A stretch of DNA of 64,000 nucleotides from Acidobacteriaceae bacterium TAA 166 (GTDB taxonomy: Bacteria; Acidobacteriota; Terriglobia; Terriglobales; Acidobacteriaceae), in assembly GCA_000421065.1 (NCBI GenBank), contig ATWD01000001.1, positions 992,001 to 1,056,000 of the forward strand, in the 5' to 3' direction. A program made the position numbers and the translations under genes. Of this stretch, positions 15,531 through 52,929 are shown piece after piece; position 1 is the first letter of the stretch; each line of letters opens with the position of its first letter. The notes under the pieces were generated by a model that was not told the DNA's origin, did no database searches, and was given only the letters and a program-made list of their open reading frames with translations.

Positions 15531-15628
15531 TTGCCTATAGGACTTCGGCTTTATACACTGAAGCCTCGGGAATTCCAGCATATGCGGTGAAACCGTTCAG
15601 CTGTTTCCGGTTGAACGGGGAGGTTCAA
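15531..15628 (+). promoter_or_regulatory. Possible promoter and Shine-Dalgarno hairpin of the propeller lipoprotein
   Basis: TTGCCT (15531-15536) and TACACT (15554-15559), spaced by 17 bases, form a weak promoter candidate. Immediately before the gene, TTGAAC (15611-15616) and GTTCAA (15623-15628) form an inverted repeat whose six-base loop is the Shine-Dalgarno GGGGAG and whose right arm includes the A of the ATG. Confidence 0.3.
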
Positions 15629-18177
15629 TGCGTCGGTTCGTCACTTTAGCAGTTCTGTTGTTCTTTACGATTCCATTCGGTATCTCGATCTCAGGTTGCG
15701 GCAAGGGCGGGACCAAGCAGGTCTTCTGCAACTCGAGCGATACCGGCCCGGTCGTCGGGCAGGTCGATACCATTACCCTGACGCCCAGAATCTATGGAAT
15801 CTCCCTGAATCAGGGACAAATCGGACAGGTGGCCACGCCCACCGCCGCCGATTGCAACGGCACCCCTGTTACGGTCTCGGCCTACACCTATGGCATCTTC
15901 GATGCCAACGGGCATCAATCCAACGATCTTCTGCAGATCGCCGATGTCGTTCCCTCGGGGACGAACGCCGGTAAGCTCTGCGCCGGAAACTGGAATCGCA
16001 ACACCGGCGGCGGAATCCCCGACTACACGACCTGCAATGTGACCGGCAAGACCGGCACCGTCTATGTGGTGGCTTCGGCGGGAGCGACCAGCAATCCTCT
16101 CCCGATCTTTGTTCACCCCAAGGTCGCCAGCGTGACGCTGGGCAATCCAACGCCATCCAACGCCTGCGCCGCCACCGATGACGCGGTCGACGCCGCCGGC
16201 CAGTCCTCCAACTGCTGCCAGCTCTCGAAGCAGGCTACCGTCACCGCACCGCCTTACGATGGCGTCTCCTGCGTATCCCAAGGACAGAGCCAGCAGATCG
16301 TCGGGCGCGCCTTCGATACGAACGGCAACAACATCACCTGCCAGGTCGGTCACCTCTCCTTTGCGGCTCAGACCACCACCATCGCCTCGGTCGACGAGAA
16401 CGGCGTCGCCACAGCGCAGCAGCCAGGCTCCACCATCGTGAGCGCCGACCTGACCCAGGCCGGATCGAGCGCCGGATTTTTCTCCACCTGCCCGCCGGTC
16501 TCGATCAGCCTCACCGTTCCCGGAACCCAGCCCGGGATCACCAGCGCGGTCGTAAACCAGAACAATCCCCAGCCGCTGACCGCGGTCGCCATCGACAAAA
16601 ACGGCACCACGCTGACCGGCCTCAGCCTGAACTTCGTCTCCACCACTCCGATCACCGTTCCGGTGGCCTCGACCGGCATCGTTACGCCGGTCTTTCCTGG
16701 AGCGGCGGCCATCACTGCCATCTGCCAGCCTCCCACCTGCAACCAATCTCCGAATAATCAGATCGGTCTGCTCGCCAACGGCAAGCCCGTCGCCTCGAAC
16801 CCGGTGAACATCACGACGCCGGGCAGCAACAGCTCCCAGATTTGGGTGGGAAGCACGCAGTCCCGCTACATCCTCCCGGTCGACTTCACCAATCCGACCT
16901 TCGGAACTCCCGTGCGGCTTCCCTTCGCCCCCAACTCCATGGTCATGTCCAACGATGGGGCCTCGATCTACATGGGAACCGAGACCGAGCTGATGGTCTT
17001 CACGGCCACGACCAACAGCCTCTCGCGCGAGGACGCCTCTGTAGCCGGCCAGGTTCTGGCGGTATCGCCTGATGGCGGAACCCTGGTTATCTCCGATCCG
17101 CGCAAGCAGCTCGTCTATCTCTATTCCACGGCCACCAGCTCTGGCACCGGCACAAGCTCGAGCACCGGGACTGGAACAGGAACAACCGGTACAGGCACCA
17201 CCACGACGGCGAGCGGCGGCGTCACCACGACCTTCGGCGGGGTCGCCACCCACGCCGAATTCACGCAGGACAACCAGACCGTCTACATCACCCTGGGAAC
17301 GCCCGACCCGAACGATCCGACCAATCCGCAGAAGATCGCCCCCACCAACCAGATGTTGGTCCATTCCACCTTCAATGGCTGGTCGCAGGTCGCCCTGCCC
17401 AACCCCGCCTCCGATGTCGCCATCACCGTACCGGCCATCGGCGCCTATCTTGCAGGGTCCAAGACAACCGGACGCAGCTACTGCGCCAGCACGACGGTGA
17501 ATCCAGACCAGAGCGTCACCAACAACTTCTACCCGCTGGCCGATACGCAAAATGCCGTGACCGACCGGATCGTCGCGACCGACGATGGGCTCCATGTCAT
17601 CGGAGCCACCGCTTCGAGCGGCGGATCCATCACGGACATAACCTTCAATAAGGCTCTTCCGCCTTCTCCCCCTTCAAACGATCCCTACTATCCCCAGCCA
17701 CAGAATCCTCCGGCGGGACTGCAGTGGCCGCCCCAGGGAGGCTGCCCCACCATCGTGGCTTCGGACTACTTCAGCCCCTTTGTGTCGGCGCTGAATTCAC
17801 ATCCACTGGGCGTGACGGCTGACACCATCACAGGCGTCCTCCCCACCACGAACTCGAGCCTGGCTTTCATCACCTACACCGGCAGCTCGGGCGTTCTTCC
17901 CGCCTATGCCCCAGCGACCGGTACCGTGACCCCAGTCCAGCTGACCGGTGCGACTGCTCCCGTGGCCGCCGCCATCAGCTCGGACGACCTCACGGTCTTC
18001 GTCGGGACCTCCGGCGACAACAAGGTGCACCTCGTCAATACGAAGACCCTTACCGATACGCCATCCCAGTCCATTACCCCAAACCTGCCGCAGTACATCG
18101 ACGTCAACACCGACAATCCATCCACGGTGGTCCCTCCCAACCTGATCGTCCAGCATCCTCGCAAGGCGACCTCGTAG
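15628..18177 (+). CDS. Beta-propeller/Ig-like lipoprotein
   Basis: A large envelope lipoprotein of unknown specific role. The signal peptide ends in SISGC, making Cys24 the lipidation site. The first half has Cys-containing, Ig/BIG-like segments (e.g. SVDENGVATAQQPGSTIVSADLT); the second half shows repeated propeller-type blades (NSMVMSNDGASIYMGTET, GQVLAVSPDGGTLVISD, AAISSDDLTVFVGTSGDNKVHLVNTKT), resembling YVTN/quinoprotein-type propellers. A Thr/Ser/Gly/Ala spacer (TGTGTGTTGTGTTTT type) near residues 505-535 separates blades. 849 residues; GGGGAGG lies just before the ATG. Proteins of this layout are common in Acidobacteria genomes; no enzymatic motif was seen. Confidence 0.8.
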   Translation: MRRFVTLAVLLFFTIPFGISISGCGKGGTKQVFCNSSDTGPVVGQVDTITLTPRIYGISLNQGQIGQVATPTAADCNGTPVTVSAYTYGIFDANGHQSNDLLQIADVVPSGTNAGKLCAGNWNRNTGGGIPDYTTCNVTGKTGTVYVVASAGATSNPLPIFVHPKVASVTLGNPTPSNACAATDDAVDAAGQSSNCCQLSKQATVTAPPYDGVSCVSQGQSQQIVGRAFDTNGNNITCQVGHLSFAAQTTTIASVDENGVATAQQPGSTIVSADLTQAGSSAGFFSTCPPVSISLTVPGTQPGITSAVVNQNNPQPLTAVAIDKNGTTLTGLSLNFVSTTPITVPVASTGIVTPVFPGAAAITAICQPPTCNQSPNNQIGLLANGKPVASNPVNITTPGSNSSQIWVGSTQSRYILPVDFTNPTFGTPVRLPFAPNSMVMSNDGASIYMGTETELMVFTATTNSLSREDASVAGQVLAVSPDGGTLVISDPRKQLVYLYSTATSSGTGTSSSTGTGTGTTGTGTTTTASGGVTTTFGGVATHAEFTQDNQTVYITLGTPDPNDPTNPQKIAPTNQMLVHSTFNGWSQVALPNPASDVAITVPAIGAYLAGSKTTGRSYCASTTVNPDQSVTNNFYPLADTQNAVTDRIVATDDGLHVIGATASSGGSITDITFNKALPPSPPSNDPYYPQPQNPPAGLQWPPQGGCPTIVASDYFSPFVSALNSHPLGVTADTITGVLPTTNSSLAFITYTGSSGVLPAYAPATGTVTPVQLTGATAPVAAAISSDDLTVFVGTSGDNKVHLVNTKTLTDTPSQSITPNLPQYIDVNTDNPSTVVPPNLIVQHPRKATS

Positions 18178-18193
18178 GAGCCTCATTCCCAGC

Positions 18194-18240
18194 CTGCAAG
18201 TAAAAAGCCCTCTCGAACCGAGAGGGCTTTTTACTTGCAG
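18194..18240. terminator. Strong bidirectional rho-independent terminator
   Basis: A perfect 22-base inverted repeat (18194-18215 and 18219-18240) with a three-base AAC loop. The GC-rich core CCCTCTCG/CGAGAGGG is flanked by AAAAAG on the left and CTTTTT on the right, so a T-run follows the stem on either strand. It lies 16 bases after the propeller lipoprotein stop and faces the convergent nusB. Confidence 0.92.
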
Positions 18241-18272
18241 GATATACGGTGCGGGATTTTCAGGAAAAAAGA

Positions 18273-18450
18273 ATGGCCTGCCGGCCGAACCCACTACGCG
18301 GTCACTTCGTGACGCATAATCCCTTTGGGGTGGGGCTCCCGTTGGTCGCTGGAAGAATCTTAGCGCCGACCAATGGGAGGCCCATGGCGAAGTCGGCATA
18401 CATCCCACGAAGTGGGCGCCGTCCGTGTAGGACGCCCGCGCGGCAGCGCC
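18273..18450. repeat. Dispersed palindromic repeat, copy A (~180 bp)
   Basis: One of three full copies of a MITE-like repeat (others at 23541 and 50557). It begins ATGGCCTGCCGGCC and ends CCCGCGCGGCAGCGCC, the two ends being imperfect inverted copies of each other. Inside, GGTCACTTCGTGACGC and CATCCCACGAAGTGGGC are opposed. Compared with copy B it lacks the segment with the CCACAAAC/GTTTG hairpin. It fills the space between the terminator and the 3' end of nusB. No open frame in it looks like a gene. Confidence 0.8.
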
Positions 18451-18454
18451 TGTT

Positions 18455-18877
18455 TCAGCCTAAACGCTGCTTCAGAAGATCGCGGGCAATCGCATCCAGA
18501 ACGCCGTTGAGGAACTGCACCGACTCCGGCGCCGCATACCGCCGCGCCACCTCCAGCGACTCGTTGATGATGATCGCCGCCGGGGTACTCGGACTTCCTA
18601 GCATCTCGGCCACGGCCGCGCGGATCAGGTTGCGATCGACCACAGCCATCCGCTCCAGCCGCCAGTTCTGCGCATGCGCCTCGATCATCTTGTCGATCTC
18701 CGGCTGCCGGTTGGTGGCGACGCGATAGATATCCTCGGCGAAGGCGCGCGTGTCGTCATCGACATCGTCGCGGGAGTCCCAGAAGAGCTTCGCGACCTGT
18801 TCGGGAGTCTGCTTGCCCAGGTCGCCTTGAAAGAGCATCTGCATGGCCAGCTCGCGGGATTTGCGTCTCGTCCCCAT
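18455..18877 (-). CDS. nusB: Transcription antitermination protein NusB
   Basis: NusB binds boxA RNA with S10 (NusE) and supports antitermination of rRNA operons. The 140-residue all-helical protein begins GTRRKSRELAMQMLFQGDLG and has the conserved ending MLGSPSTPAAIIINESLEVARRYAAPESVQFLNGVLDAIARD. Its ATG shares one base with the stop of the upstream ribH fusion gene (TAATG), and the ribH-nusB pairing is common across bacteria, so the two form an operon. It converges on repeat copy A. Confidence 0.97.
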   Translation of the reverse strand: MGTRRKSRELAMQMLFQGDLGKQTPEQVAKLFWDSRDDVDDDTRAFAEDIYRVATNRQPEIDKMIEAHAQNWRLERMAVVDRNLIRAAVAEMLGSPSTPAAIIINESLEVARRYAAPESVQFLNGVLDAIARDLLKQRLG

Positions 18878-19776
18878 TACCGCCCACCCTCTTCCGCCCG
18901 GATCTTGCGTTGGATCGAAACCATCTCGATCGCCGCAATCGCCGCCTCGAAGCCCTTGTTCCCGGCCTTGATGCCGGCGCGGTCCAGCGCCTGCTCCAAC
19001 GTCTCGCAGGTCAGCACGCCAAAGGCGTGGGGAATGCCGGTGTCCTGCTGCGACTGTCCGATGCCGCGAGCAACTTCGTTATAGATCGCCTCGTAGTGCG
19101 CGGTCTCCCCTCGAATGAGACAGCCGAGCGTGATGATGCCGTCGAATCGCTTCGTCTCCGCCAACGTACGGGCCGCAGAAGGCACCTCCCATGCTCCCGG
19201 CACGCGAACGATCTCGATGTCGCCCCGGGCCGCTCCGCTGCGATGCAGAGCGTCGAGCGAGCCTTGCAGAAGGCGGTCGGTAATCACCGCGTTCCAGCGC
19301 GCCGTCACGATCGCAAACTTCATCCCCGCCGCCGAGAGATCGCCCTCGATCGCCACAGGCTTATTGTGCAGAGGGTTCTCCGACTGCCAGAATCCCAGCT
19401 CCAGTCCATCCCCGCTCCCGACGACAGCCCCGTCCCGCAGCTTCACCCGAAACAGGCGGCTGTTCCAGCTCGTCGGCTCGGGCCTGGTCAGCAGAAGAGC
19501 CACCTCTTCGCTGCGATAGTTCGCCTGCATCCACTGCTCCACTGCGGAGTGAACCGCGTCGAGTCCGAAGACCTCGATCAAAATCGTTGGAGCGTCATGT
19601 ATCGTTCCCGCGACCAGCTCCAGATTTCCCAGGGGAGCCAGCATCGCCGCCCCGCGGCTGCTCTCCTGCTTCCAGCCCTTCCCTTCCTCGAATCCCAGCG
19701 AGAGCAGAAGGCGGCTCAACCGGTCGAGCGCCTCGTCCGAGGCCACCTCGCGTATCAGCGTCATTCCCTTGATCAT
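18877..19776 (-). CDS. ribH: VOC-like domain fused to 6,7-dimethyl-8-ribityllumazine synthase
   Basis: The C-terminal ~160 residues are lumazine synthase, condensing ribityl-aminouracil with dihydroxybutanone phosphate in riboflavin synthesis: IEGDLSAAGMKFAIVTARWN, VPGAWEVPSAARTL, GCLIRGETAHYEAI with the catalytic histidine, and GFEAAIAAIEM are all present. Ordinary RibH is ~155 residues; here 299, with an N-terminal domain of about 135 residues (IREVASDEALDRLSRLLLSLGFE ... SRLFRVKLRDG...LELGFW) that looks like one glyoxalase/VOC module. The frame is continuous. A GTG codon at 19354-19356 could start a RibH-only protein but has no Shine-Dalgarno. The VOC call is by pattern only. Confidence 0.88.
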   Translation of the reverse strand: MIKGMTLIREVASDEALDRLSRLLLSLGFEEGKGWKQESSRGAAMLAPLGNLELVAGTIHDAPTILIEVFGLDAVHSAVEQWMQANYRSEEVALLLTRPEPTSWNSRLFRVKLRDGAVVGSGDGLELGFWQSENPLHNKPVAIEGDLSAAGMKFAIVTARWNAVITDRLLQGSLDALHRSGAARGDIEIVRVPGAWEVPSAARTLAETKRFDGIITLGCLIRGETAHYEAIYNEVARGIGQSQQDTGIPHAFGVLTCETLEQALDRAGIKAGNKGFEAAIAAIEMVSIQRKIRAEEGGR

Positions 19777-19865
19777 AGGTTCGATTGTATCGTTATCCCT
19801 TCAAAGCCCTTACACCAGGCGCAGATCTGCAACAGAAGGTGACGAAAGATTTACAAAGGAGATCT

Positions 19866-20675
19866 ATGCCAGACGCAGCCGCCTCCGAAGCCATCCTCTC
19901 CGATACCCTGCTCTGCGAGATCGAGGGCCGAATCGCGACCGTCACCCTCAAACGCCCGCAGGTTCTCAACGCCCTCAACGCGCAGGTCTTCGACGATCTG
20001 GAATACGTCTTCACCTACCTGGCCAAAGACGCCTCCGTGCGGGTCATCCTGCTCACCGGCTCCGGCGAAAAGGCCTTTGCTGCGGGCGCCGATATCAAGG
20101 AGCTCGCCGAGATCGGCCGGTTTCAAGCACAGGCACTCTCCCGCCGCGGCCAGCGCATCTTTCGCCTCATCGAGACCTGCGACACGCCGGTCATCGCGCT
20201 GATCAACGGCTTCGCCCTCGGTGGCGGCTGCGAGCTAGCCCTCGCCTGCACCCTTCGCATCGCCGCCGATACCGCAAAACTCGGCCTGCCCGAAGCAAGG
20301 CTCGGCCTGATCCCCGGCTATGGCGGAACTCAGCGCCTGCCGCGGCTGATCGGTCCATCGGCTGCATTGAAGATGATGCTGACCGGCGAGCGCATCAGCG
20401 CCGCCGAGGCCCTGCGGCTGGGGCTGGTCGACGAGGTCGTTCCTGCGGCCGATTTGCTTGCCCACGGCCGTGAACTTGCCGCCGCCATCCTCTCCATGGC
20501 CCCGCTCGCCGTCACGGCCTGCCTTGAAGCCGTCTCCAAAGGAGTCGATCGCGACCTCGAGGACGCCCTGCGGCTCGAGAGCAGGATCTTTGGACGCCTC
20601 GCGGCGACCGAGGACAAATCGGAGGGTGTGCAGGCCTTCCTCGAGAAACGCGTTCCAACATGGGCAGGCCGCTAG
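19866..20675 (+). CDS. Enoyl-CoA hydratase/isomerase (crotonase) family protein
   Basis: Crotonase-fold enzyme, most likely a short-chain enoyl-CoA hydratase of fatty-acid or butyrate metabolism. The start at 19866 is fixed by AAAGGAG six bases upstream, giving 269 residues, standard for the family. GSGEKAFAAGADIKEL forms the oxyanion loop; both catalytic glutamates are present, in GGGCELALAC and in GLPEARLGLIPGYGGTQRLPR. It is transcribed away from ribH-nusB. The exact substrate cannot be read from sequence. Confidence 0.92.
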   Translation: MPDAAASEAILSDTLLCEIEGRIATVTLKRPQVLNALNAQVFDDLEYVFTYLAKDASVRVILLTGSGEKAFAAGADIKELAEIGRFQAQALSRRGQRIFRLIETCDTPVIALINGFALGGGCELALACTLRIAADTAKLGLPEARLGLIPGYGGTQRLPRLIGPSAALKMMLTGERISAAEALRLGLVDEVVPAADLLAHGRELAAAILSMAPLAVTACLEAVSKGVDRDLEDALRLESRIFGRLAATEDKSEGVQAFLEKRVPTWAGR

Positions 20676-20683
20676 CCTGGGGA

Positions 20684-20732
20684 GGAGAACTGCACTGCCG
20701 CGCGGGCCCACTGCGCGGCAGCGCAGTTCTCC
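20684..20732. repeat. Long hairpin made of two fused repeat ends
   Basis: A 20-base inverted repeat with one mismatch (20684-20703 and 20713-20732) around a nine-base loop GGGCCCACT, nine bases after the crotonase stop. The sequence CTGCCGCGCGGGCCCACTGCGC is the outer end of the dispersed repeat family (copies A-C), here with left and right ends directly joined and the middle missing. It could act as a processing or termination hairpin. Confidence 0.75.
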
Positions 20733-20767
20733 CCATTCCACCCGGCCTTGGTATCCTGATAATCGAT

Positions 20768-21328
20768 ATGCGAACCTCCATCGGCCGATTCTCCCTCGGG
20801 GTCGCCCTCGCCAGCCTGCCCCTTCTCCCCCTCACGCTCACCGGATGCACCGGAAGCTCCGCTGCGAACGTCCCCTCCGCATCCCTCGCCGAGCAGCGAC
20901 AGGCCGCTATCAACGACATGCGCCAGCAGCTGGAGCAGATCCCTCCTCCCTCGAAGACCCGTTACATGGCGGTCCATAATCTCACCACATGGGAGAATCC
21001 CTACCTCACCGTGCAGGGCGGCATGGTCACGCTGCATGTTCTAATCGCCGACGCCAACACCAGCCCCCTGGGGCAGGGCGGCATGCTGCGCCCAGTCGGC
21101 GCCCGCCGCCGCAATCTCGACGTCCGCGTCAACGACCTTCCGGCGGCCCTCAACGCCATTCCCGCGTCCGCCTGGCCCTACGGCCGTGTCGTGGCGGTCG
21201 AAGAAGCGCACGAGATTCCGGTCAGCGCAAGACCCGAGGTGCGGCGCAACCTCGAATCCGTCCTCAAAACCCTCGGCGACCTCGGCGTCGTCACCTACGA
21301 ATGGAACGACGCCGGTCGCGGGCTGTAG
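20768..21328 (+). CDS. Small exported lipoprotein, unknown function
   Basis: A 186-residue lipoprotein: MRTSIGRFSLGVALASL is followed by the lipobox LTGC with Cys27. The mature part has a helical AEQRQAAINDMRQQLEQIPPP segment, then a beta-rich region (NPYLTVQGGMVTLHVLIAD ... RRRNLDVRVNDLPAALNAIPASAWPYGRVVAVEEA). I do not recognise the family. The frame is open further upstream through the hairpin repeat, but the ATG at 20768 gives a proper signal peptide and is preferred. It lies between the crotonase and the symporter on the same strand. Confidence 0.8.
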   Translation: MRTSIGRFSLGVALASLPLLPLTLTGCTGSSAANVPSASLAEQRQAAINDMRQQLEQIPPPSKTRYMAVHNLTTWENPYLTVQGGMVTLHVLIADANTSPLGQGGMLRPVGARRRNLDVRVNDLPAALNAIPASAWPYGRVVAVEEAHEIPVSARPEVRRNLESVLKTLGDLGVVTYEWNDAGRGL

Positions 21329-21386
21329 CCTCTTTCCATCCTGATTCCTTCCGAGAGGGCGGGAACAAACAAGCACATGCAGTAAC

Positions 21387-22937
21387 ATGGCTCCTATCCG
21401 AAATTCAGGGGAGTCCCTTCGATTGCACGCAACCGCGCTCGCTGTCTTCTGCGTCTTCTTTCTTTTGGTCACGCTGGCAGGCTTCTGGGCGGCGAGGTGG
21501 AGAAGACCCGCTGCCGGCATTGCCTCGCTTGAAGAGTGGGGTCTGGCCGGCCGCAGCTTCGGAACCTGGATCACCTGGTTTCTGATCGGCGGCGACCTCT
21601 ACACCGCCTACACCGTCATCGCCGTTCCCGCCGCGCTCTATGGCGCCGGAGCGATGGGGTTCTTCGCCGTCCCCTACGCCGTCATCGCCTACCCCTACAT
21701 GATGGTCGTGCTTCCCCAACTCTGGCGCGTCTGCCATCGCCACGGCTACATCACCTTCGCCGACTTCGTCGAAGGCCGCTACGGCAACCGCTGGCTCACC
21801 GTCGCCATCGCCCTCACGGGAGTCCTGGCGCTGATGCCCTACATCGCCCTGCAGCTGGTCGGCATGAAGGTGGTACTGGCGGCGATGGGACTCCATGGCG
21901 AGTGGCCCCTGGCCGCCGCCTTCATCATCTTGGCCGCCTACACCTACTCGAGCGGTCTGCGCGCCCCTGCCGTAATCGCCATCGTCAAGGACGTCATGCT
22001 CTACGTCATGGTCCTGTCCGCCCTGATCTTTATCCCCATCAAGCTCGGCGGCTACAGGCATGTCTTCGCGATGGCCAATCACATCCTCGCAGGTCACACA
22101 CCGCCTGCGACCATCTTCCTCAAACCGACACAATTCCTCGGCTACTCCACGCTCGCGATCGGATCGGCGCTGGCCCTGATGCTCTACCCGCACACCGCGA
22201 CGGCCGTCCTCTCGGCCTCGAGCGCCAACGTCGTCCGGCGCAACGCGGCCATGCTCCCGGCCTACAGCTTTCTGCTCGGCCTGATCGCTTTGCTGGGTTA
22301 TCTCGCGCTTGCCGCGGGAATTCACACCAAGGACACCAGCGCCGCCGTTCCCCTCCTCTTCCTCAACTCTTTTCCAGAATGGTACGCCGGCTTCTGCCTC
22401 GCCGCCGTCGCCATCGGCGCCCTGGTTCCCGCCGCGATCATGTCCATCGCCGCATCCAACCTCTTCACCCGCAACCTCTACGGTGCCTTCGCGGGGCGCA
22501 AGATGCTGCCCAGCGAAGAGTCCGGAATGGCCAAGGTGGTCTCGCTCGTCGTCAAGTTCGGAGCCCTCATCTTCGTGCTCTACCTTCCCGCGCCCTACGC
22601 CATCGAGATGCAGTTGCTGGGGGGCATCTGGATCTGCCAGCTTGTGCCTTCGGTCGTCATCGGCGTCTTTTCGCGCTGGCTTCATCCCTGGGCTCTGATT
22701 GCAGGATGGGCGGCCGGAATGGCCACGGGAACCGCTATGGCAGCCTCGCTGCAGCTGAAGAGTTCGGTCTACCCTCTGCATCTTCCGGCGTGGCTCGGGG
22801 GAACGTATGCGATGTACGCGGCGGTTCCGGCGCTGCTGATCAACCTCGCAGTCTCGGCGCTGCTGACCCTCTTCTTCCGAAGTATGGGCGTCGGCGCAGG
22901 CCACGATTCGACCGACGCCGCGGCCTACGTCGGCTAG
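21387..22937 (+). CDS. Sodium:solute symporter, MctP-like monocarboxylate permease
   Basis: A 516-residue inner-membrane transporter of the SSS family with about 13 hydrophobic segments. The SSS core is visible: EEWGLAGRSFGTWITWFLIGGDLYTAYT in the first helices, YITFADFVEGRYGNRW, and ALMLYPHTATAVLSASSANVVRRNAA. The closest pattern known to me is the monocarboxylate/MctP subgroup (lactate, pyruvate, propionate), but the substrate is inference. The start ATG is 58 bases after the lipoprotein, so co-transcription is possible. Confidence 0.85.
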   Translation: MAPIRNSGESLRLHATALAVFCVFFLLVTLAGFWAARWRRPAAGIASLEEWGLAGRSFGTWITWFLIGGDLYTAYTVIAVPAALYGAGAMGFFAVPYAVIAYPYMMVVLPQLWRVCHRHGYITFADFVEGRYGNRWLTVAIALTGVLALMPYIALQLVGMKVVLAAMGLHGEWPLAAAFIILAAYTYSSGLRAPAVIAIVKDVMLYVMVLSALIFIPIKLGGYRHVFAMANHILAGHTPPATIFLKPTQFLGYSTLAIGSALALMLYPHTATAVLSASSANVVRRNAAMLPAYSFLLGLIALLGYLALAAGIHTKDTSAAVPLLFLNSFPEWYAGFCLAAVAIGALVPAAIMSIAASNLFTRNLYGAFAGRKMLPSEESGMAKVVSLVVKFGALIFVLYLPAPYAIEMQLLGGIWICQLVPSVVIGVFSRWLHPWALIAGWAAGMATGTAMAASLQLKSSVYPLHLPAWLGGTYAMYAAVPALLINLAVSALLTLFFRSMGVGAGHDSTDAAAYVG

Positions 22938-23049
22938 CGTCAAACAATTTCAGCTTCCAGGCGCAGCCAGAACCTTTCGGCAGTGCATCCTACGTGCAAA
23001 GGGCTAATCCATTCGGGCTCTCCAAGAGGAGCCGCATCGAGGTGAACGA

Positions 23050-23517
23050 GTGAGCACACGGTCGAGATCCATCGTGAAGGGAGCGCTCGCGGGACTCGTT
23101 GGCGGACTTCTCGCCACCGCCGTCAAATCTTCCATCGAGAAGGTGCATTCCCAGCTCCCCGGCGTCGAGTCGGAGTCCTCCGCGCCGCTCGAGAGTCTCC
23201 AGGGGCGCGAGCGGAGCGAACGTCAGAGTGGGACTCACTGGGGCTTCGGAGCCGCCGTAGGAGCAGCCTATGGCGCCTTCGCCGAGCTTTACCCTCCCGT
23301 GACCTCCAAACTCGGCGCAAGCTTCGGCATGGCCATGGTGCCGCTCGCTCATGACACAACCATCCCCCTGCTTGGAGCAGCGCTCGCCGCCGCGGGAATC
23401 TCAGCCCGACCCGAACCCCAGACCACGCGCGAGCACTTCGGCGAGATGGCCTCGAACATCGCCTTCGGGGTCGTCACCGAGACGACACGCCGGATCGTCC
23501 GCCGCGCCATCGACTAA
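23050..23517 (+). CDS. DUF1440-like small membrane protein
   Basis: A 155-residue protein starting at GTG with GAGGTGAAC just upstream. It has the glycine-rich, membrane-embedded pattern KGALAGLVGGLLATAVKSSIEK near the N-terminus, then HWGFGAAVGAAYGAFAELYPPV and GMAMVPLAHDTTIPLLGAAL, typical of the DUF1440 (YagU-like) family. YagU has been linked to acid tolerance in E. coli; no function is proven here. Convergent with the purine-permease-family gene, with repeat copy B between them. Confidence 0.7.
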   Translation: MSTRSRSIVKGALAGLVGGLLATAVKSSIEKVHSQLPGVESESSAPLESLQGRERSERQSGTHWGFGAAVGAAYGAFAELYPPVTSKLGASFGMAMVPLAHDTTIPLLGAALAAAGISARPEPQTTREHFGEMASNIAFGVVTETTRRIVRRAID

Positions 23518-23540
23518 GACTGTATCGACTTATTCAAGAC

Positions 23541-23780
23541 AATGGCCTGCCGGCCGGGCCCACTGCGCATGGGGCGGTCACTTCGTGACGCGTAGTTGCC
23601 CTTTGGGGTGGGGCTCCCGTTGGTCGCTTGCATAAATCTTCGCGCCGAACCGAAGGGAGGCCCACAGCGAAGCCGACATACGCGTCACGAAGTGACCGAC
23701 CGCCCGTAACGGGGTCTCCACAAACAGGTCTTCGTTTGCGGGGCGGCCGAGCGTAGTGGCCCGCGCGGCAGCGCCTGGCC
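23541..23780. repeat. Dispersed palindromic repeat, copy B (~240 bp, most complete)
   Basis: The fullest copy of the family. Ends are imperfect inverted repeats (GGCCTGCCGGCCGGGCCCAC on the left; GTGGCCCGCGCGGCAGCGCC on the right). CGGTCACTTCGTGACGCGTA near 23575 has an exact 20-base inverted partner near 23685, so the centre can fold into a long cruciform; a further inner pair, GGGCTCCCGTTGG and CGAAGGGAGGCCC, nests inside. It sits exactly between two convergent genes. No transposase or credible coding frame is present. Confidence 0.85.
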
Positions 23781-23792
23781 TTTATCCTTCGC

Positions 23793-24851
23793 TCACTTCC
23801 CCGCTGCTGGAAGATGCTCCCGCGTCTCGCTCCAGTCCGCGACCAGCCGGTCCACCACGACATGACCCACGCGATAGGCCGAATCCAGCGAGGGCATGTA
23901 TGCGCTGTACTGCCGGATCTTCGTCTCAGCCAGGCTCTGGGCCGCCGTCGCTCCCTCACGCTGCTGATCGTAGTTCGACGCCGTCCGCAGCACCAGCACG
24001 CGGTCGATGTCGATCTTTCCCGCGCGCGCCAGCCAGGTCAGCGACTGCAGGGTTCCCGTATCCTCCATGCCGCAGACCGCATACGTGCTCTTGCCGTCGG
24101 TCTGGTAGCTCACCCAGTCGTGCGCCCACTGACTCAACAGCTTTCCATGCCAGAAGGTCGAGCCCGACATCTCGCCGCCGCGCAGCACAAACGGCGGACG
24201 CTTGGCGGCCTCGGGCGAGAACTGCTGCCGGCGCTCGCGGATCCCCGGTGTGTCCTCAAGGTGAATCTCGCGCGTCAGGCTGAACGCCCAGTCCACCAGC
24301 GCCGGATTGAGCCGATAGACATTGCCGTCGTCGCCAAAGCGCGCCTGCCGCGGCTGCTCGTATGGGGTGGACCTGCCCAGCGGTACATAGCCCGTCTTCC
24401 AGTCCGGCGGAATCTCCCGGGCATCGATCTCGTGGGCCAGATCGGCATCGACCACATAGTCGGCCCAGACCGCCGAGCCCAGCGAGCCCATATGCGGGTC
24501 AATGCCCGCGATCCCCGCAACCACGAAGTAAGCATGCGTCAGGTCGAAACGAGGATCGCGGCCCAGGGCCATCATCGTCGCCGCCGCTCGAGCCGTACCC
24601 ACGCCCGTCACAACGCCAAGCACCCCATCCTTGTTCATGCGCAGATCGTGGTAACCCTCGGGAAAGGGCAGGACCGTATCCAGATGCTCGCGCTCGACCC
24701 AGTACTGATGCTCGCCCGGCGCATCCCCGGTATCGGCGCCGACCTCGAACATATTCACGACCACGACCTTGACCTCGATGGGCTTTGGCGCAGCCTGTCC
24801 CAGGGCGCACGAAGCTGCGGCGGCCAGCAGAAAAACGGAGAAAAGACGCAT
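23793..24851 (-). CDS. Purine nucleoside permease (NUP) family protein
   Basis: A 352-residue exported protein (signal peptide MRLFSVFLLAAAASCALG) of the NUP family, named after fungal purine nucleoside permeases and related in fold to nucleoside phosphorylases. Supporting segments: VVVVNMFEVGADTGDAPGEHQYW, GVVTGVGTARAAATMMALGRD, YFVVAGIAGIDPHMGSLGSAVWADYVVD, and GMEDTGTLQSLTWLARAGKID. In bacteria its role is unclear; periplasmic nucleoside binding or cleavage is inference. Divergent from the 326-residue unknown gene, with 118 bases between. Confidence 0.82.
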   Translation of the reverse strand: MRLFSVFLLAAAASCALGQAAPKPIEVKVVVVNMFEVGADTGDAPGEHQYWVEREHLDTVLPFPEGYHDLRMNKDGVLGVVTGVGTARAAATMMALGRDPRFDLTHAYFVVAGIAGIDPHMGSLGSAVWADYVVDADLAHEIDAREIPPDWKTGYVPLGRSTPYEQPRQARFGDDGNVYRLNPALVDWAFSLTREIHLEDTPGIRERRQQFSPEAAKRPPFVLRGGEMSGSTFWHGKLLSQWAHDWVSYQTDGKSTYAVCGMEDTGTLQSLTWLARAGKIDIDRVLVLRTASNYDQQREGATAAQSLAETKIRQYSAYMPSLDSAYRVGHVVVDRLVADWSETREHLPAAGK

Positions 24852-41637: not shown

Positions 41638-41669
41638 ATGGCCTGCCGGCCGGGCCCACTGCGCTCTTC
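41638..41669. repeat. Solo left end of the dispersed repeat
   Basis: ATGGCCTGCCGGCCGGGCCC and the adjoining ACTGCGCTCTTC match the left end of repeat copies A and B. It sits 30 bases after lpxK and nine bases before the heptosyltransferase start, where a Shine-Dalgarno would normally be; no right end is present. Confidence 0.75.
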
Positions 41670-41678
41670 TACCAAAAT

Positions 41679-42827
41679 ATGTCGATACAACCTGGACCGT
41701 CAGAGGGCGGAGTTCAAAACGTTTTGAGCGGATCGCAGAGGATTTTGATTGTGCGGATCGGCGCGATGGGCGATGTCCTGCACGCGATGCCGGCGGTGGC
41801 GGCGCTGCGACGGAGCCGTCCGGAGTGGAGCGTGGGCTGGGTGATCGAGCCGCGCTGGGCTCCCCTGGTCGAGGCCGCCGAGGTGGACGACGGACACACT
41901 GTCCGGCCGCTGATCGACCGGGTCTTCCCTGCCGCGACGAAGAGCTGGAAGACTCGACCGGTCTCGGCGAAGACGCTGGGGGAGATCGCAGGACTGCGCC
42001 GCGAGCTGAGGGAGCAGCGATTCGACCTGTGCGTGGATATGCAGGGGTCGATCCGGTCGGCGGTGATCGGAAAGATGTCGAAAGCGAAGATGATTGCAGG
42101 GCCGGACCATCCTCGCGAAGCTCCGGCGCGCTGGCTTTATGGCAGGCGGGTGGCGCTGCGTGCGGAGCATGTGATCGAGCAGGGCTGCGAGCTGCTGGGC
42201 CACGCCGCGGGAGTCTCGCTTGCGCCGTGCCCGCTGAACTTCGCCACCGATCCGGCCATGGAGCAGTGGTGCGATGAGGTGCTGACGAGGATCTTTCCCG
42301 AAGGAGGGCCGTTTGTTCTGCTGGCCCCGACGGCCGGGTGGGGAGCGAAGCAGTGGCCGGCGGAGCGGTTCGCGGAGCTGGCGGTGGAGCTGGGCCGGAG
42401 AGGATTTCGATCCGCCGTCAATGCGAGCGGCCCGGGGGATGAGGTGGCGACGAGGGTCGTGACCGCGAGCGCGGGTTATGCGGTGGGAGTCGCCGGAGAT
42501 CTTACTCAGCTGATGGCGCTGACGCGACGGGCGAGCGTGGCGATCGCGGGCGATACCGGGCCGCTGCACCTGGCAGCGGCGATGCGGAGGCCGGTGGTGG
42601 CGCTGTTCGGACCGACGGATCCGGCGCGCAATGGGCCCTATGGGACGCGTGCCGTGACGATCCGGCATGGAGCTCCCCGGCGGGACCATCGCAGGCGCGA
42701 GGAGCCGGAGGAGGGGATGCTGGCAATTACAGTAGAGGAGGTGCTTGCGGCCGCGATGGAGCTGCTGCGGGAAGAGTACGAGAACGGGACGAAGGATCGG
42801 ACGGGGTCGGGTAGAACGAGTGAGTGA
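41679..42827 (+). CDS. Heptosyltransferase (glycosyltransferase family 9)
   Basis: A GT9 enzyme that adds L-glycero-D-manno-heptose to the inner core, WaaC/WaaF-like. From the ATG at 41679 it is 382 residues. ILIVRIGAMGDVLHAMPAVAALRR is the family's N-terminal acceptor region; APTAGWGAKQWPAERFAEL and AGDTGPLHLAAAMRRPVVALFGPTDPARNGPYG are donor-site motifs. It follows lpxK after a short repeat end; no strong Shine-Dalgarno is visible because the repeat occupies that position. WaaC versus WaaF cannot be decided here. Confidence 0.9.
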   Translation: MSIQPGPSEGGVQNVLSGSQRILIVRIGAMGDVLHAMPAVAALRRSRPEWSVGWVIEPRWAPLVEAAEVDDGHTVRPLIDRVFPAATKSWKTRPVSAKTLGEIAGLRRELREQRFDLCVDMQGSIRSAVIGKMSKAKMIAGPDHPREAPARWLYGRRVALRAEHVIEQGCELLGHAAGVSLAPCPLNFATDPAMEQWCDEVLTRIFPEGGPFVLLAPTAGWGAKQWPAERFAELAVELGRRGFRSAVNASGPGDEVATRVVTASAGYAVGVAGDLTQLMALTRRASVAIAGDTGPLHLAAAMRRPVVALFGPTDPARNGPYGTRAVTIRHGAPRRDHRRREEPEEGMLAITVEEVLAAAMELLREEYENGTKDRTGSGRTSE

Positions 42828-48551: not shown

Positions 48552-48582
48552 ATGGCCTGCCGGCCGGGTCCACTGCGCTCGG
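48552..48582. repeat. Solo left end of the dispersed repeat
   Basis: ATGGCCTGCCGGCCGGGTCC followed by ACTGCGCTCGG, almost identical to the left end of copies A and B, between convergent moaC and egtD. A short GGCAGC follows, perhaps a trace of the right end. Confidence 0.75.
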
Positions 48583-48611
48583 CAGCACTAGTTTTTATCC
48601 CAAACCATGCC

Positions 48612-50556: not shown

Positions 50557-50793
50557 GAGCTGCGCTGCCGCGCGGGCCCACTGCGCGTGGGGCGGTCACT
50601 TCGTGACGCGTAATTGCCCTCCGGGTCGAGGCTCCAGTTGGTCGCTTGCAAAATTCTCGAGCCGACCAGAAGGAGGCCCACGGGCGTTGCCGATACGCGC
50701 GTCGGGAAGTGACCGCCCGTACTGCGGGGTCCCCACAAACAGATCTTCGTTTGTGGGGCGGCCGAGTGCGATGGACCCGGTCGGCAGACCATA
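50557..50793. repeat. Dispersed palindromic repeat, copy C (~237 bp)
   Basis: Third full copy, in the 425 bases between the RcnB-like gene and egtB, with no gene in the remainder. It carries GCGGTCACTTCGTGACGCG and an opposing, slightly diverged GCGTCGGGAAGTGACCGC, plus a perfect hairpin CCCCACAAAC/GTTTGTGGGG (near 50728-50757). Its left end begins GCTGCGCTGCCGCGCGGGCC and its right end GGACCCGGTCGGCAG, so left and right end types are swapped relative to copy B, as if inverted. Confidence 0.8.
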
Positions 50794-50803
50794 GGTCTGT
50801 GCT

Positions 50804-52096
50804 CTAACGGGCCAGGCGTAGGCCGGAGAACTGCCAGCGTGTGGCAGGCGAAAAGAAGTTGCGATACGTGGCGCGAATGTGACTTGCCGGCGTGACGCAG
50901 GAGCCTCCCCGCAGCACCATCTGCGAGCTCATGAACTTGCCGTTGTACTCCCCGAGGGCGCCGGGCAGCGGAGCATAGCCGGGATAGCCGGTGTATGGGC
51001 TGGCGGTCCACTCCCACACGTCGCCGAAGATCTGCTGCAGGCCAGAGAGATGGCCGGCGGGGGTGGGATGGAGGCTGCCGGTGTCGAGCAGGTTGGAGCG
51101 GGCTCCGGGCGCGGCCTCGCGGGCGGCGTACTCCCACTCGAACTCCGTGGGGAGACGGTAGCCGGTCCAGCGGGCGTAGGCGTCGGCCTCGAAGAAGCTG
51201 AGGTGGCAGACGGGCGTCTCGGAGAGGTCTTCGAGCGGGATGAGCCCGTGGAGCGTGTAGATGGACCATCCGGATTTGGTCTCGGAGTCGCGCTGCCAGT
51301 AGAGAGGGGCCTGCCAGCCCTCGGAGCGAATGGCGGTCCAGCCCTCGGAGAGCCAGAGCTCGGGACGGTTGTAGCCGTTCTGGTCGAGGAAGGCGAGGTA
51401 TTCGGCACAAGTGACGAGGCGGCTGGCGAGACGGTAGGGCGCGATGTAGACGGGATGGCGCGGGGTCTCGTTGTCGAAGGCGAAGCAGTCGATGGCGTTG
51501 GGGTCGGGGGTGAGTCCGATCTCGGTGAGGCCGGGGGAGAAGTCGATCCACTCGAGCGGAGGCGCGATGGTGGTTCCCTGCGCGGGGGAGGCATCTTCGA
51601 TGTAGGGCGGATGCAGGGGGTTGGTGAAGAGGGCGTGCTTAACGTCGGTGGCGATCAGCTCCTGATGCTGCTGCTCGTGTTCGATGCCGAGGGCGATGCG
51701 GCGGGCGGCCTCGTCTTCGACGGTGTGCTGCAGCAGACGCTCGATGCCGGCATCGACGCTGGCGCGATAGGAGAGGATGAGGTCGAGCGGGGGACGGGAG
51801 AAGGAGGAGCGGAGCTTCTTTTCGGGCATCTCGCCGAGGGAGTTGTAGTAGCTGTTGAAGAGCCAGCGGAAGTCGGGATGGAAGGGGGTGTAACCGGCGA
51901 GGAATTCGGAGAGGACGAAGGTTTCGAAGAACCAGCTGGTATGGGCCAGGTGCCATTTGACTGGGCTGGCCTCGGGACAGGACTGCACCATCATGTCCTC
52001 GGGCGAGAGAGGTCGACAGAGCGTTGCCGTGGCGTTGCGGACGGCCTTGTAACGGGCAAGGAGAGAGGCGGCTGCATTATCGAGGGAGGCTGGCAT
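50804..52096 (-). CDS. egtB: Ergothioneine synthase EgtB-type iron enzyme
   Basis: EgtB is a non-heme iron sulfoxide synthase joining hercynine to a thiol (gamma-glutamylcysteine or cysteine) with O2. From ATG 52096 it has 430 residues: an N-terminal DinB-like domain with iron ligand His52 (KWHLAHTSWFFE) and the HEQQHQE motif near residue 145, and a C-terminal formylglycine-generating-type domain (PVCHLSFFEADAYARWTGYRLPTEFEWEYAAR, DVWEWTASPY, RGGSCVTP). egtD is nearby on the same strand; egtA, egtC and egtE are not in the window. Confidence 0.93.
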   Translation of the reverse strand: MPASLDNAAASLLARYKAVRNATATLCRPLSPEDMMVQSCPEASPVKWHLAHTSWFFETFVLSEFLAGYTPFHPDFRWLFNSYYNSLGEMPEKKLRSSFSRPPLDLILSYRASVDAGIERLLQHTVEDEAARRIALGIEHEQQHQELIATDVKHALFTNPLHPPYIEDASPAQGTTIAPPLEWIDFSPGLTEIGLTPDPNAIDCFAFDNETPRHPVYIAPYRLASRLVTCAEYLAFLDQNGYNRPELWLSEGWTAIRSEGWQAPLYWQRDSETKSGWSIYTLHGLIPLEDLSETPVCHLSFFEADAYARWTGYRLPTEFEWEYAAREAAPGARSNLLDTGSLHPTPAGHLSGLQQIFGDVWEWTASPYTGYPGYAPLPGALGEYNGKFMSSQMVLRGGSCVTPASHIRATYRNFFSPATRWQFSGLRLAR

Positions 52097-52176
52097 GTTT
52101 GTTTTTACCCCGTTTTCATGGGATGGGCGGCGCGGAGGTTTTGTTGCTTTTTCTATCCTGCGTAAAAACCGTTCGT

Positions 52177-52929
52177 TCAGGTAGGGCGGTTGAGCAGGCC
52201 GGCAAGCAGGTAGGCGACCGCGGCGGCGGCACCCCCGATGAGCACGGTCTGGGTGGCGCTGCGCAGCCATCCGGTGCCGACGATTTTACCCTTCAAGGCT
52301 CCGAAGACGCCAAGCGCGGCCAGCGTGACGACGACCGAGAGCTCGAGGGCGGTGCGGTTACGTGAGACCAGCATATAAGGCACGAGCGGTACCAGGCCGC
52401 CGGCGATGTAGGAGATGGCGATGGTCAGGGCGGAGCGGTGGGCGCGGCCCGGGAGGGGCGCTTCAAGGCCGAGCTCGAAGCGCATCATGAAGTCGACCCA
52501 TGCGGCGGGGTTCTGCTTGAGAGCCTCGAGCACGGGAGCGGCGCTGGCTCGCGGTACGGTGTACTGCTCGAAGATCTCGTAGATCTCCTCCTCTTCATCG
52601 CGGGTGCGCTCGACGACCTCGCGCTGTTCGCGGAGTTTTTCGGAGGCGTAGTGCTCGGCGTCGCCGCGCGCGGCGAGATATCCTCCGAGGCCCATGGCGA
52701 TGGATCCGGCGGCGATCTCGGCCAGGCCGGCGAGCACGACGATGCGCGAGGAGGCGACGGCTCCGGAGAGCCCCGCGGCGAGCGCGAAGGGGACGGTGAG
52801 GCCGTCGGAGAGGCCGATGACGATATCGCGGAGGGTGGCGCTGGATTCGAAGTGTCCCTCGACGTGGGTCGGATTCGTAAGATTCGCCGCGGAGCGGGCC
52901 CTAACGGAGGAGGGCGAGGATTCGGTCAT
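52177..52929 (-). CDS. VIT1/CCC1-family metal transporter
   Basis: A 250-residue membrane protein of the vacuolar iron transporter family. It has the first-helix signature RDIVIGLSDGLTVPFALAAGLSGAV, the helix-2 block AGLAEIAAGSIAMGLGGYLAARGDAEHY with metal-binding glutamates, a charged cytoplasmic helix (REVVERTRDEEEEIYEIFEQY) and three C-terminal helices. Bacterial members probably move Fe(II) or Mn(II); direction and metal are unproven. It lies upstream of egtB on the same strand with 80 bases between. Confidence 0.9.
   Translation of the reverse strand: MTESSPSSVRARSAANLTNPTHVEGHFESSATLRDIVIGLSDGLTVPFALAAGLSGAVASSRIVVLAGLAEIAAGSIAMGLGGYLAARGDAEHYASEKLREQREVVERTRDEEEEIYEIFEQYTVPRASAAPVLEALKQNPAAWVDFMMRFELGLEAPLPGRAHRSALTIAISYIAGGLVPLVPYMLVSRNRTALELSVVVTLAALGVFGALKGKIVGTGWLRSATQTVLIGGAAAAVAYLLAGLLNRPT

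Follow-up and report, generated by a model that had tools for sequence, protein, structure and literature searches.

In the current view, RAYT transposases read REP hairpins. According to the available sections of one study, the REP palindrome has at its foot a tag, GTAG or CGTC; the study also reports Y1 genes flanked by TIRs in Acidobacteria and, in Koribacter, a TIR family that is repeated, and these can be set beside the hairpin family reported here by description only (PMC3733652). According to the available part of a review, ERIC insertions occur at the 3' ends of genes and reach 711 copies in one genome (PMC10969869). The open-access literature, covered by titles and abstract openings (with subscription papers and supplements outside this scope), yielded no description of the hairpin family that we report here, from a stretch of 64,000 nucleotides (the window, C1:992001-1056000 of the 6.14-Mb genome G000, which has 3 contigs) and from related genomes.

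Copies of the repeat in the window

An earlier note on this DNA had proposed three full copies of a palindromic repeat, A, B and C, and all three were located where it had placed them (Table 1). The exact 20-base inverted pair that it described in copy B is present (CGGTCACTTCGTGACGCGTA / TACGCGTCACGAAGTGACCG), the open frames confirm the convergent setting of copies A and B, and copy C adjoins the end of a frame, in agreement with the proposed position at the 3' end of a gene. The repeat also has no transposase gene inside it, as had been stated. Copy B has a side-hairpin module, CCACAAAC...GTTTGCGG, and the right end of copy C, read on the minus strand, is GGTC-TGCC-GACC, which adds one more paired stem.

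Three other sites had been called end-only traces; the sites stand, but the description does not, since they look like deletion forms. In the minimal element at 20692 the hairpins are GCAC-TGCC-GCGC (one mismatch) and, inverted, GCGC-GGCA-GCGC, and the copy at 48554 may have a second, degenerate end. The frames starting MACRPGP were thought to be often mis-annotated as genes, a concern that found no support here, as these frames are short (17 aa in copy B, 29 aa at 41638). The possible arm remnant to the left of copy B was compared with the insertion sequence L124, described below. Its CTAA holds the stop codon TAA of the frame that ends there, and CTAAGAC is found also at the empty site of G032 (L331), so that only GTATCGAC..ATTC speaks for an arm at this position.

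Table 1. Features of the hairpin repeat and its surroundings, in window positions
Feature	Position	Strand	Remarks
Frames around copy A	15628-18177 / 18455-18877	+ / -	convergent
Copy A	18267..18450	.	TGCC-to-TGCC ~167 bp; between convergent frames; end hairpins GGCC-TGCC-GGCC and GCGC-GGCA-GCGC
Minimal element	20692..20724	.	both end hairpins and 9-base spacer GGGCCCACT
Frames around copy B	23050-23517 / 23793-24851	+ / -	convergent
Possible IS5-type outer-arm remnant left of copy B	23514..23535	+	CTAA, then GACTGTATCGACTTATTC
Copy B	23536..23782	.	~240 bp; full-length core
Minimal/truncated copy	41640..41695	.	one end hairpin, then IS5-type inverted repeat
IS5-type inverted repeat	41677-41695	-	CCAGGTTGTATCGACATAT, 3 mismatches
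Minimal/degenerate copy	48554..48600	.	one clear end hairpin
Copy C	50557..50793	.	~237 bp
Frame adjoining copy C	50804-52270	-	

Abundance and anatomy of the element

The 21-base end motif TGCCGSSCGGGCCCACTRCGC was found at 590 sites in G000 (306 forward and 284 reverse, with up to 2 mismatches) as against 1 + 0 sites for the reversed control pattern, and this is a repeat family far beyond chance. Compared with the whole of G000, copy B gave at least 89 matches (the best 40 of 602 first-look candidates being scored). Further copies, on which the earlier note's idea of a family depended, are many in G000 as well as in related genomes.

The element is a nested palindrome of small hairpins, in which loops and linkers are constant and the stems change on both sides. 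Inward from each end come H1 (N4-TGCC-N4', a 4-base stem with the loop TGCC), the linker GGGC, H2 (CCCAC-TRCGC-GTGGG, with the loop TRCGC), often H3 (GTCAC-TTC-GTGAC), a small GGC-TTC-GCC hairpin and the centre. The central hairpin is CTCCCGTTGGTCG...CGACCAACGGGAG, and the second half of the element mirrors the first. The H1 stem is mostly GGCC/GGCC or GCGC/GCGC in G000, and GTCC/GGAC in the relatives. Copy B folds to one hairpin, as far as this is telling for a palindrome, any of which scores well on folding energy. Ungapped conservation outside the core dwindles at about -12.

The overall size is ~40-320 bp. Loop-to-loop spans in the 39 two-ended elements of the sample from G000 were 175-179 bp in 17 and 200-225 bp in 15, and the others measured 159-166 bp (n=4), 147 bp (n=1) and 31-38 bp (n=2); in minimal forms hardly more than the two ends is left. 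The two ends were unlike (one GGCC and one GCGC) in 28 of these elements and alike in 7, with an unclear end in 4 (p = 2.9e-4). An earlier test of unlike ends and of GC content, made with loose patterns, was swamped by chance hits (1678 ends; 24/30 poorer stretches matched, Fisher 0.024; 72 unlike versus 44 like ends, p = 0.005) and is superseded by the stricter motif.

For the analysis of the stems, ends were gathered by loops and linker only, avoiding circular selection, and this gave a set of 83 distinct 30-mers, 59 from G000 and 24 from relatives. In H1, 293/332 cells were paired and 72 had changed on both sides (shuffle mean 26), and in H2 the values were 262/332 and 43 (shuffle mean 12); none of 1000 shuffles reached either count of changes, a significance that is overstated because the copies are related. 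A stronger point than the shuffles is the presence of several distinct H2 stems, CCCAC, CCTCC, CCCGC, CGCCC and CGTCC, with their partners. The number of extra pair types in the 83 30-mers was not above that of the shuffles, and H1 was invariant within the relatives' ends taken alone.

Position in the genome

We sampled 60 stretches of 20 kb from C1 (1.2 Mb). With a GC cut of 0.58, which was picked after looking at the data, ends were present in 30/32 stretches at or above the cut (141 ends) versus 0/28 below it (p = 8e-15). Free movement does not explain the lack of ends in the GC-poor stretches, which counts against a mobile reading.

Genes were called with a purpose-written script in the 30 end-bearing stretches, and an element was counted only if it had a called gene on each side. 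All but one of the 93 sampled elements were intergenic, 54 of them in codirectional, 27 in convergent and 11 in divergent gaps, the corresponding numbers for all gaps of at least 20 nt being 253, 77 and 73. The motif lay within 30 nt of 60 of the 108 stop codons facing it. These results support the dispersed, MITE-like palindrome with an intergenic and 3'-end bias that had been claimed for the window.

Two side observations belong here. The chromosome, as sampled (L062-L121), alternates between GC 0.58-0.64 (32/60) and 0.51-0.57 (28/60), with no ends in the poorer stretches; these give the impression that a large share of the genome came from elsewhere or was recently turned over. At the gatB site (L187, L181, L193, L195) the element is directly upstream of a conserved TAGAAT box before the gene read as gatB, where it may supply or displace part of the promoter.

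Spread among related genomes and orthologous sites

With up to 2 mismatches, the end motif matched in 26/61 genomes, many of them with single chance-level hits. At least 3 matches were found in 12/36 congeners, and the number of ends per genome varied from 0 to 590 within one genus, with 95, 90 and 64 ends in G025, G014 and G005. A stricter pattern matched in 23/397 genomes of the order and in 19/57 of the genus (own included). Genus g22 contributed 3 single hits, and G347, an incomplete genome of genus g24, had 164, all other rows of g24 having 0. The 18 G347 elements examined have the ends and the plan seen in G000, most of them with another module replacing H3 and some with extra hairpins in the centre. 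Some G347 elements host other repeats: hairpin repeats of the GCGGCTTTAGCCGC type lie inside the central loop in L311 (G347:C90:4600-6000) at 535-850 and in L303 at 595-873. The family is abundant in G000, G014, G025, G031, G070, G074, G089 and G347. One copy is held by the MAG contig JAMFSC010000014.1. Plasmids and phages gave no match to the family, and two pattern hits in viral contigs look like chance.

The gene to the right of copy B was found in 44/60 genomes of the genus (own included), and 15 loci of other genomes were examined. Among the 10 closest (L323-L332), 9 keep the end of the neighbouring gene, and the gap contains no element in any of them; a lone end-like hit, in L332 with 3 mismatches, falls inside the neighbouring gene. 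The other five loci, from element-bearing congeners, do not keep the neighbour and are uninformative. In G012 (L323, left of position 1500, reverse strand) the copy-B orthologous site has different inverted repeats, of the AAAGGGTGGG type.

Filled and empty sites were compared in 200-kb syntenic regions of G025, G031, G014 and G002, using 23 site queries; some of these represent the same site approached from another genome, and for several at least one genome lacked a collinear flank. Three sites that are filled in G025, G031 and G014 are without the element in G002, namely the gatB site, one that follows a TGA stop, and G025 100329. G014 is the sole holder of another site, a further two-ended site is filled in just G025 and G031, and a one-ended copy (G025 55867) is present in G025 and absent from G031 and G014. 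A one-ended site common to all four species (G025 73645) has H2 as CCCAC/GTGGG in G014 and G002 and as CCTCC/GGAGG in G025 and G031. The coexistence of occupied and empty orthologous sites favours a non-autonomous element, which the earlier note had considered possible, with the proviso that the difference between filled and empty sites extends beyond the element into the flanks beside it, so that some 'empty' sites could be losses and precise junctions and duplications are not fixable.

Eleven orthologous two-ended pairs, which come from 6 sites and are not independent, have flanks that are 87-96% identical. Their interiors are 62-85% identical in 9/11 pairs and 91-94% identical in 2/11, and the ends stay. 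In each of the 9 divergent pairs at least one partner is closer to another copy of its own genome, and in 5 both partners are, in a comparison where paralogs came from the 200-kb region only and where several paralogs offer more opportunities for a close match than a single ortholog. This pattern suggests an exchange of interiors between copies. The interior kept in 2/11 pairs is a point against exchange, and repeated insertion at the same base is a possible alternative.

IS5-type outer arms and the search for a mover

A minority of G000 copies run on into CTAG-G(T/G)CGTATCGACAAATTC..., which is the terminal repeat of L124. This element of 829 bp bears the repeat at both ends, with CTAG outside on both sides, and the domains in its two frames, DUF4096 (PF13340, E 1.4e-20) and DDE_Tnp_1 (PF01609, E 7.6e-19), assign it to the IS4/5 type; a truncated second copy is also present in G000. 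The terminal repeat has 47 sites in G000 with up to 3 mismatches (control 1), and arm-like sequence was found at 15/140 core ends versus 20/2040 control pieces. In one copy, L122, the core has an arm at each end and is bordered by CTAG left and right. The target-site duplications that the earlier note had suggested looking for were not seen for the core, and this IS5-armed copy is the one with CTAG on both sides; around the two-ended copies of the sample and the filled sites of the relatives, CTAG or YTAR on both sides was not seen by eye. The cores examined in G025, G031, G014 and G347 have no arms. The L124-type IS was matched in at least 9/61 genomes, and not in G025, G014 or G005, at most 8 first-look candidates being scored in each. 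Arms and core would be a later union in this lineage, and this union might have raised the copy number.

Two other loci with the IS5-type repeat were observed. In L146, from position 1501 (G000:C1:1248355-1248373), two terminal repeats are fused with nothing between (CTAGGTCGATACGACCTAG), like an excision remnant. In L151, from position 1501 (G000:C1:1857306), a ~120-bp IS5-like miniature element seems to hold the start of a transposase frame between two terminal repeats.

Y1_Tnp (PF01797) had 0 matches in G000 and also 0 in G002, G014 and G028, though all carry the family. In 40 Y1 loci of other genomes with their flanks, we found 5 end-like hits with 1-3 mismatches and no clear element; with a 13-base pattern and 2 mismatches, 4/30 Y1 loci matched, all from genomes outside the genus. 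A Y1/RAYT mover was rejected on these grounds, with no gene in G000 and no clear neighbourhood link elsewhere. In the 12 nt outside H1 the GTAG tag was present at 3/141 ends of G000 (2.9 expected) and CGTC at 0/141 (7.8 expected); the counts in four relatives were 5/50 (1.2 expected) and 0/50. None of the stretches examined held a gene-bearing copy. A gene-bearing parent between two ends was considered in G347 (L300-L302) and rejected, as the frames between look by eye like ordinary host genes; only in L302 do two lone ends face each other, 1.7 kb apart. In L060, a Y1 locus of G040 (another family of the order), the flank contains an end-like sequence that matches the loop-and-linker pattern with 1 mismatch.

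Interpretation

Non-autonomous spread is the best-supported mechanism. We think it probable that the family is a non-coding, non-autonomous, mobile-like hairpin element (REPIN/MITE-like) that has spread to many copies between the genes of some members of one genus, and of a single genome in a second genus, and has been reworked by recombination. A different origin, as a MITE of the IS5-family IS of G000, would have its transposase act on the CTAG-flanked ends GTCGTATCGACAAAT, the hairpin core being cargo. L124 with its repeats, CTAG flanks and PF13340/PF01609 pieces fits this origin, as do the many cores flanked by the terminal repeat, L122 for example, and the 3'-end position would follow if stop codons provided CTAG/YTAR targets. 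However, arms are found at so few core ends, and are so consistently lacking on the relatives' cores examined, that we consider this origin unlikely; even genomes with 95, 90 and 64 ends gave no match to the IS among the few candidates scored in each. We also regard as improbable that the elements are true members of the REP/RAYT system, REPINs that have lost their RAYT gene or have one that has diverged beyond recognition. Two inverted palindromes that form one hairpin, extragenic and in high copy, are what a REPIN would have, and they are found here in the 39 two-ended elements, the 92/93 intergenic positions and the fold of copy B; no target duplication was seen, and the unlike ends (28 C/G pairs versus 7 like) recall distinct left and right ends. 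Yet no Y1 gene was found in four family-bearing genomes, none of the 40 Y1 loci elsewhere lies beside a clear end of the element, and neither tag is enriched in G000.

The hairpins could alternatively be kept by selection in 3' untranslated regions, as a structured RNA or a transcript-end signal, as the earlier note had also proposed. The paired stem changes agree with this, and so do the position behind stop codons, the share of elements in convergent gaps (27/92, against 77/403 gaps) and the paired H2 change in the one-ended copy common to four species. Mismatches on the sense strand are, however, 12 G-U versus 15 A-C (344 pairs at 43 codirectional ends, a small sample), with no strand bias. 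The presence of the element differs between related species, and some copies are in divergent gaps (11/92, and the gatB site). The window had 0 Rfam matches at the gathering score. Terminator-like sites in 18000-24200 are as frequent as chance would give (4 found versus 3.8 expected), and one of them, on both strands, is a hairpin of its own (18208-18226) immediately to the left of copy A. The RNA proposal received no positive support from these data; a transcript-end role is possible, and as the explanation of the family we hold selection on RNA to be rather unlikely.

If the family spreads as a non-autonomous element, the end hairpin, with its loop TGCC and linker GGGC, would be read as a single-stranded fold by a trans-acting enzyme, in the way proposed for REP hairpins and RAYT. 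Interiors would be swapped between copies by recombination or gene conversion through the common hairpins, and internal deletions would lead to the short forms. Some G000 copies also carry the ends of the IS5-family IS lying between CTAG, and such a target would fit the stop codons. Perhaps the family even represents a class of mobile DNA recognised by the shape of its end hairpin (fixed TGCC loop and GGGC linker, co-varying stems) and moved by an enzyme other than RAYT, the ends staying while the interior cassette swaps between copies; this we suggest only tentatively. If it is true, every site would retain its element from species to species while the content of that element changed.

The family would be a REPIN-like population of hundreds of copies in a lineage that did not yield the usual transposase. 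It offers a natural set of paired stem changes for asking what enzyme or process reads them, and the orthologous sites allow the exchange of interiors to be traced from one species to another. Should the copies located behind stop codons affect transcripts, the family would also matter for gene expression throughout the chromosome's GC-rich part.

Comparison with known systems

With the Correia and ERIC MITEs, compared by description only and as far as the available part of the review describes them (PMC10969869), the family has in common short intergenic elements of variable copy number; it differs in that no flanking duplication was seen, there is no parent IS for the core and the ends are small hairpins. 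L124 and its MITEs have the terminal repeat and the CTAG flank in common with the outer arms of a minority of copies, whereas most G000 cores and the examined cores of relatives are without arms. The double-hairpin elements of fungal mitochondrial DNA (Paquin et al. 2000, as cited in the available part of PMC5910586) were likewise compared by description only, and belong to organelle DNA. The REPINs of the REP-RAYT system, in the available sections of the two sources (PMC3116915, PMC3733652), resemble the family in their inverted hairpin ends with a spacer, extragenic position, hundreds of copies, non-autonomous nature and a predicted fold as single-stranded DNA or mRNA. In contrast to them, no RAYT was found for the family in G000 or beside a clear end, its end stem changes in a paired manner while the TGCC loop stays fixed, and its interior is a chain of hairpins, differing between copies and species, in elements of up to ~320 bp.
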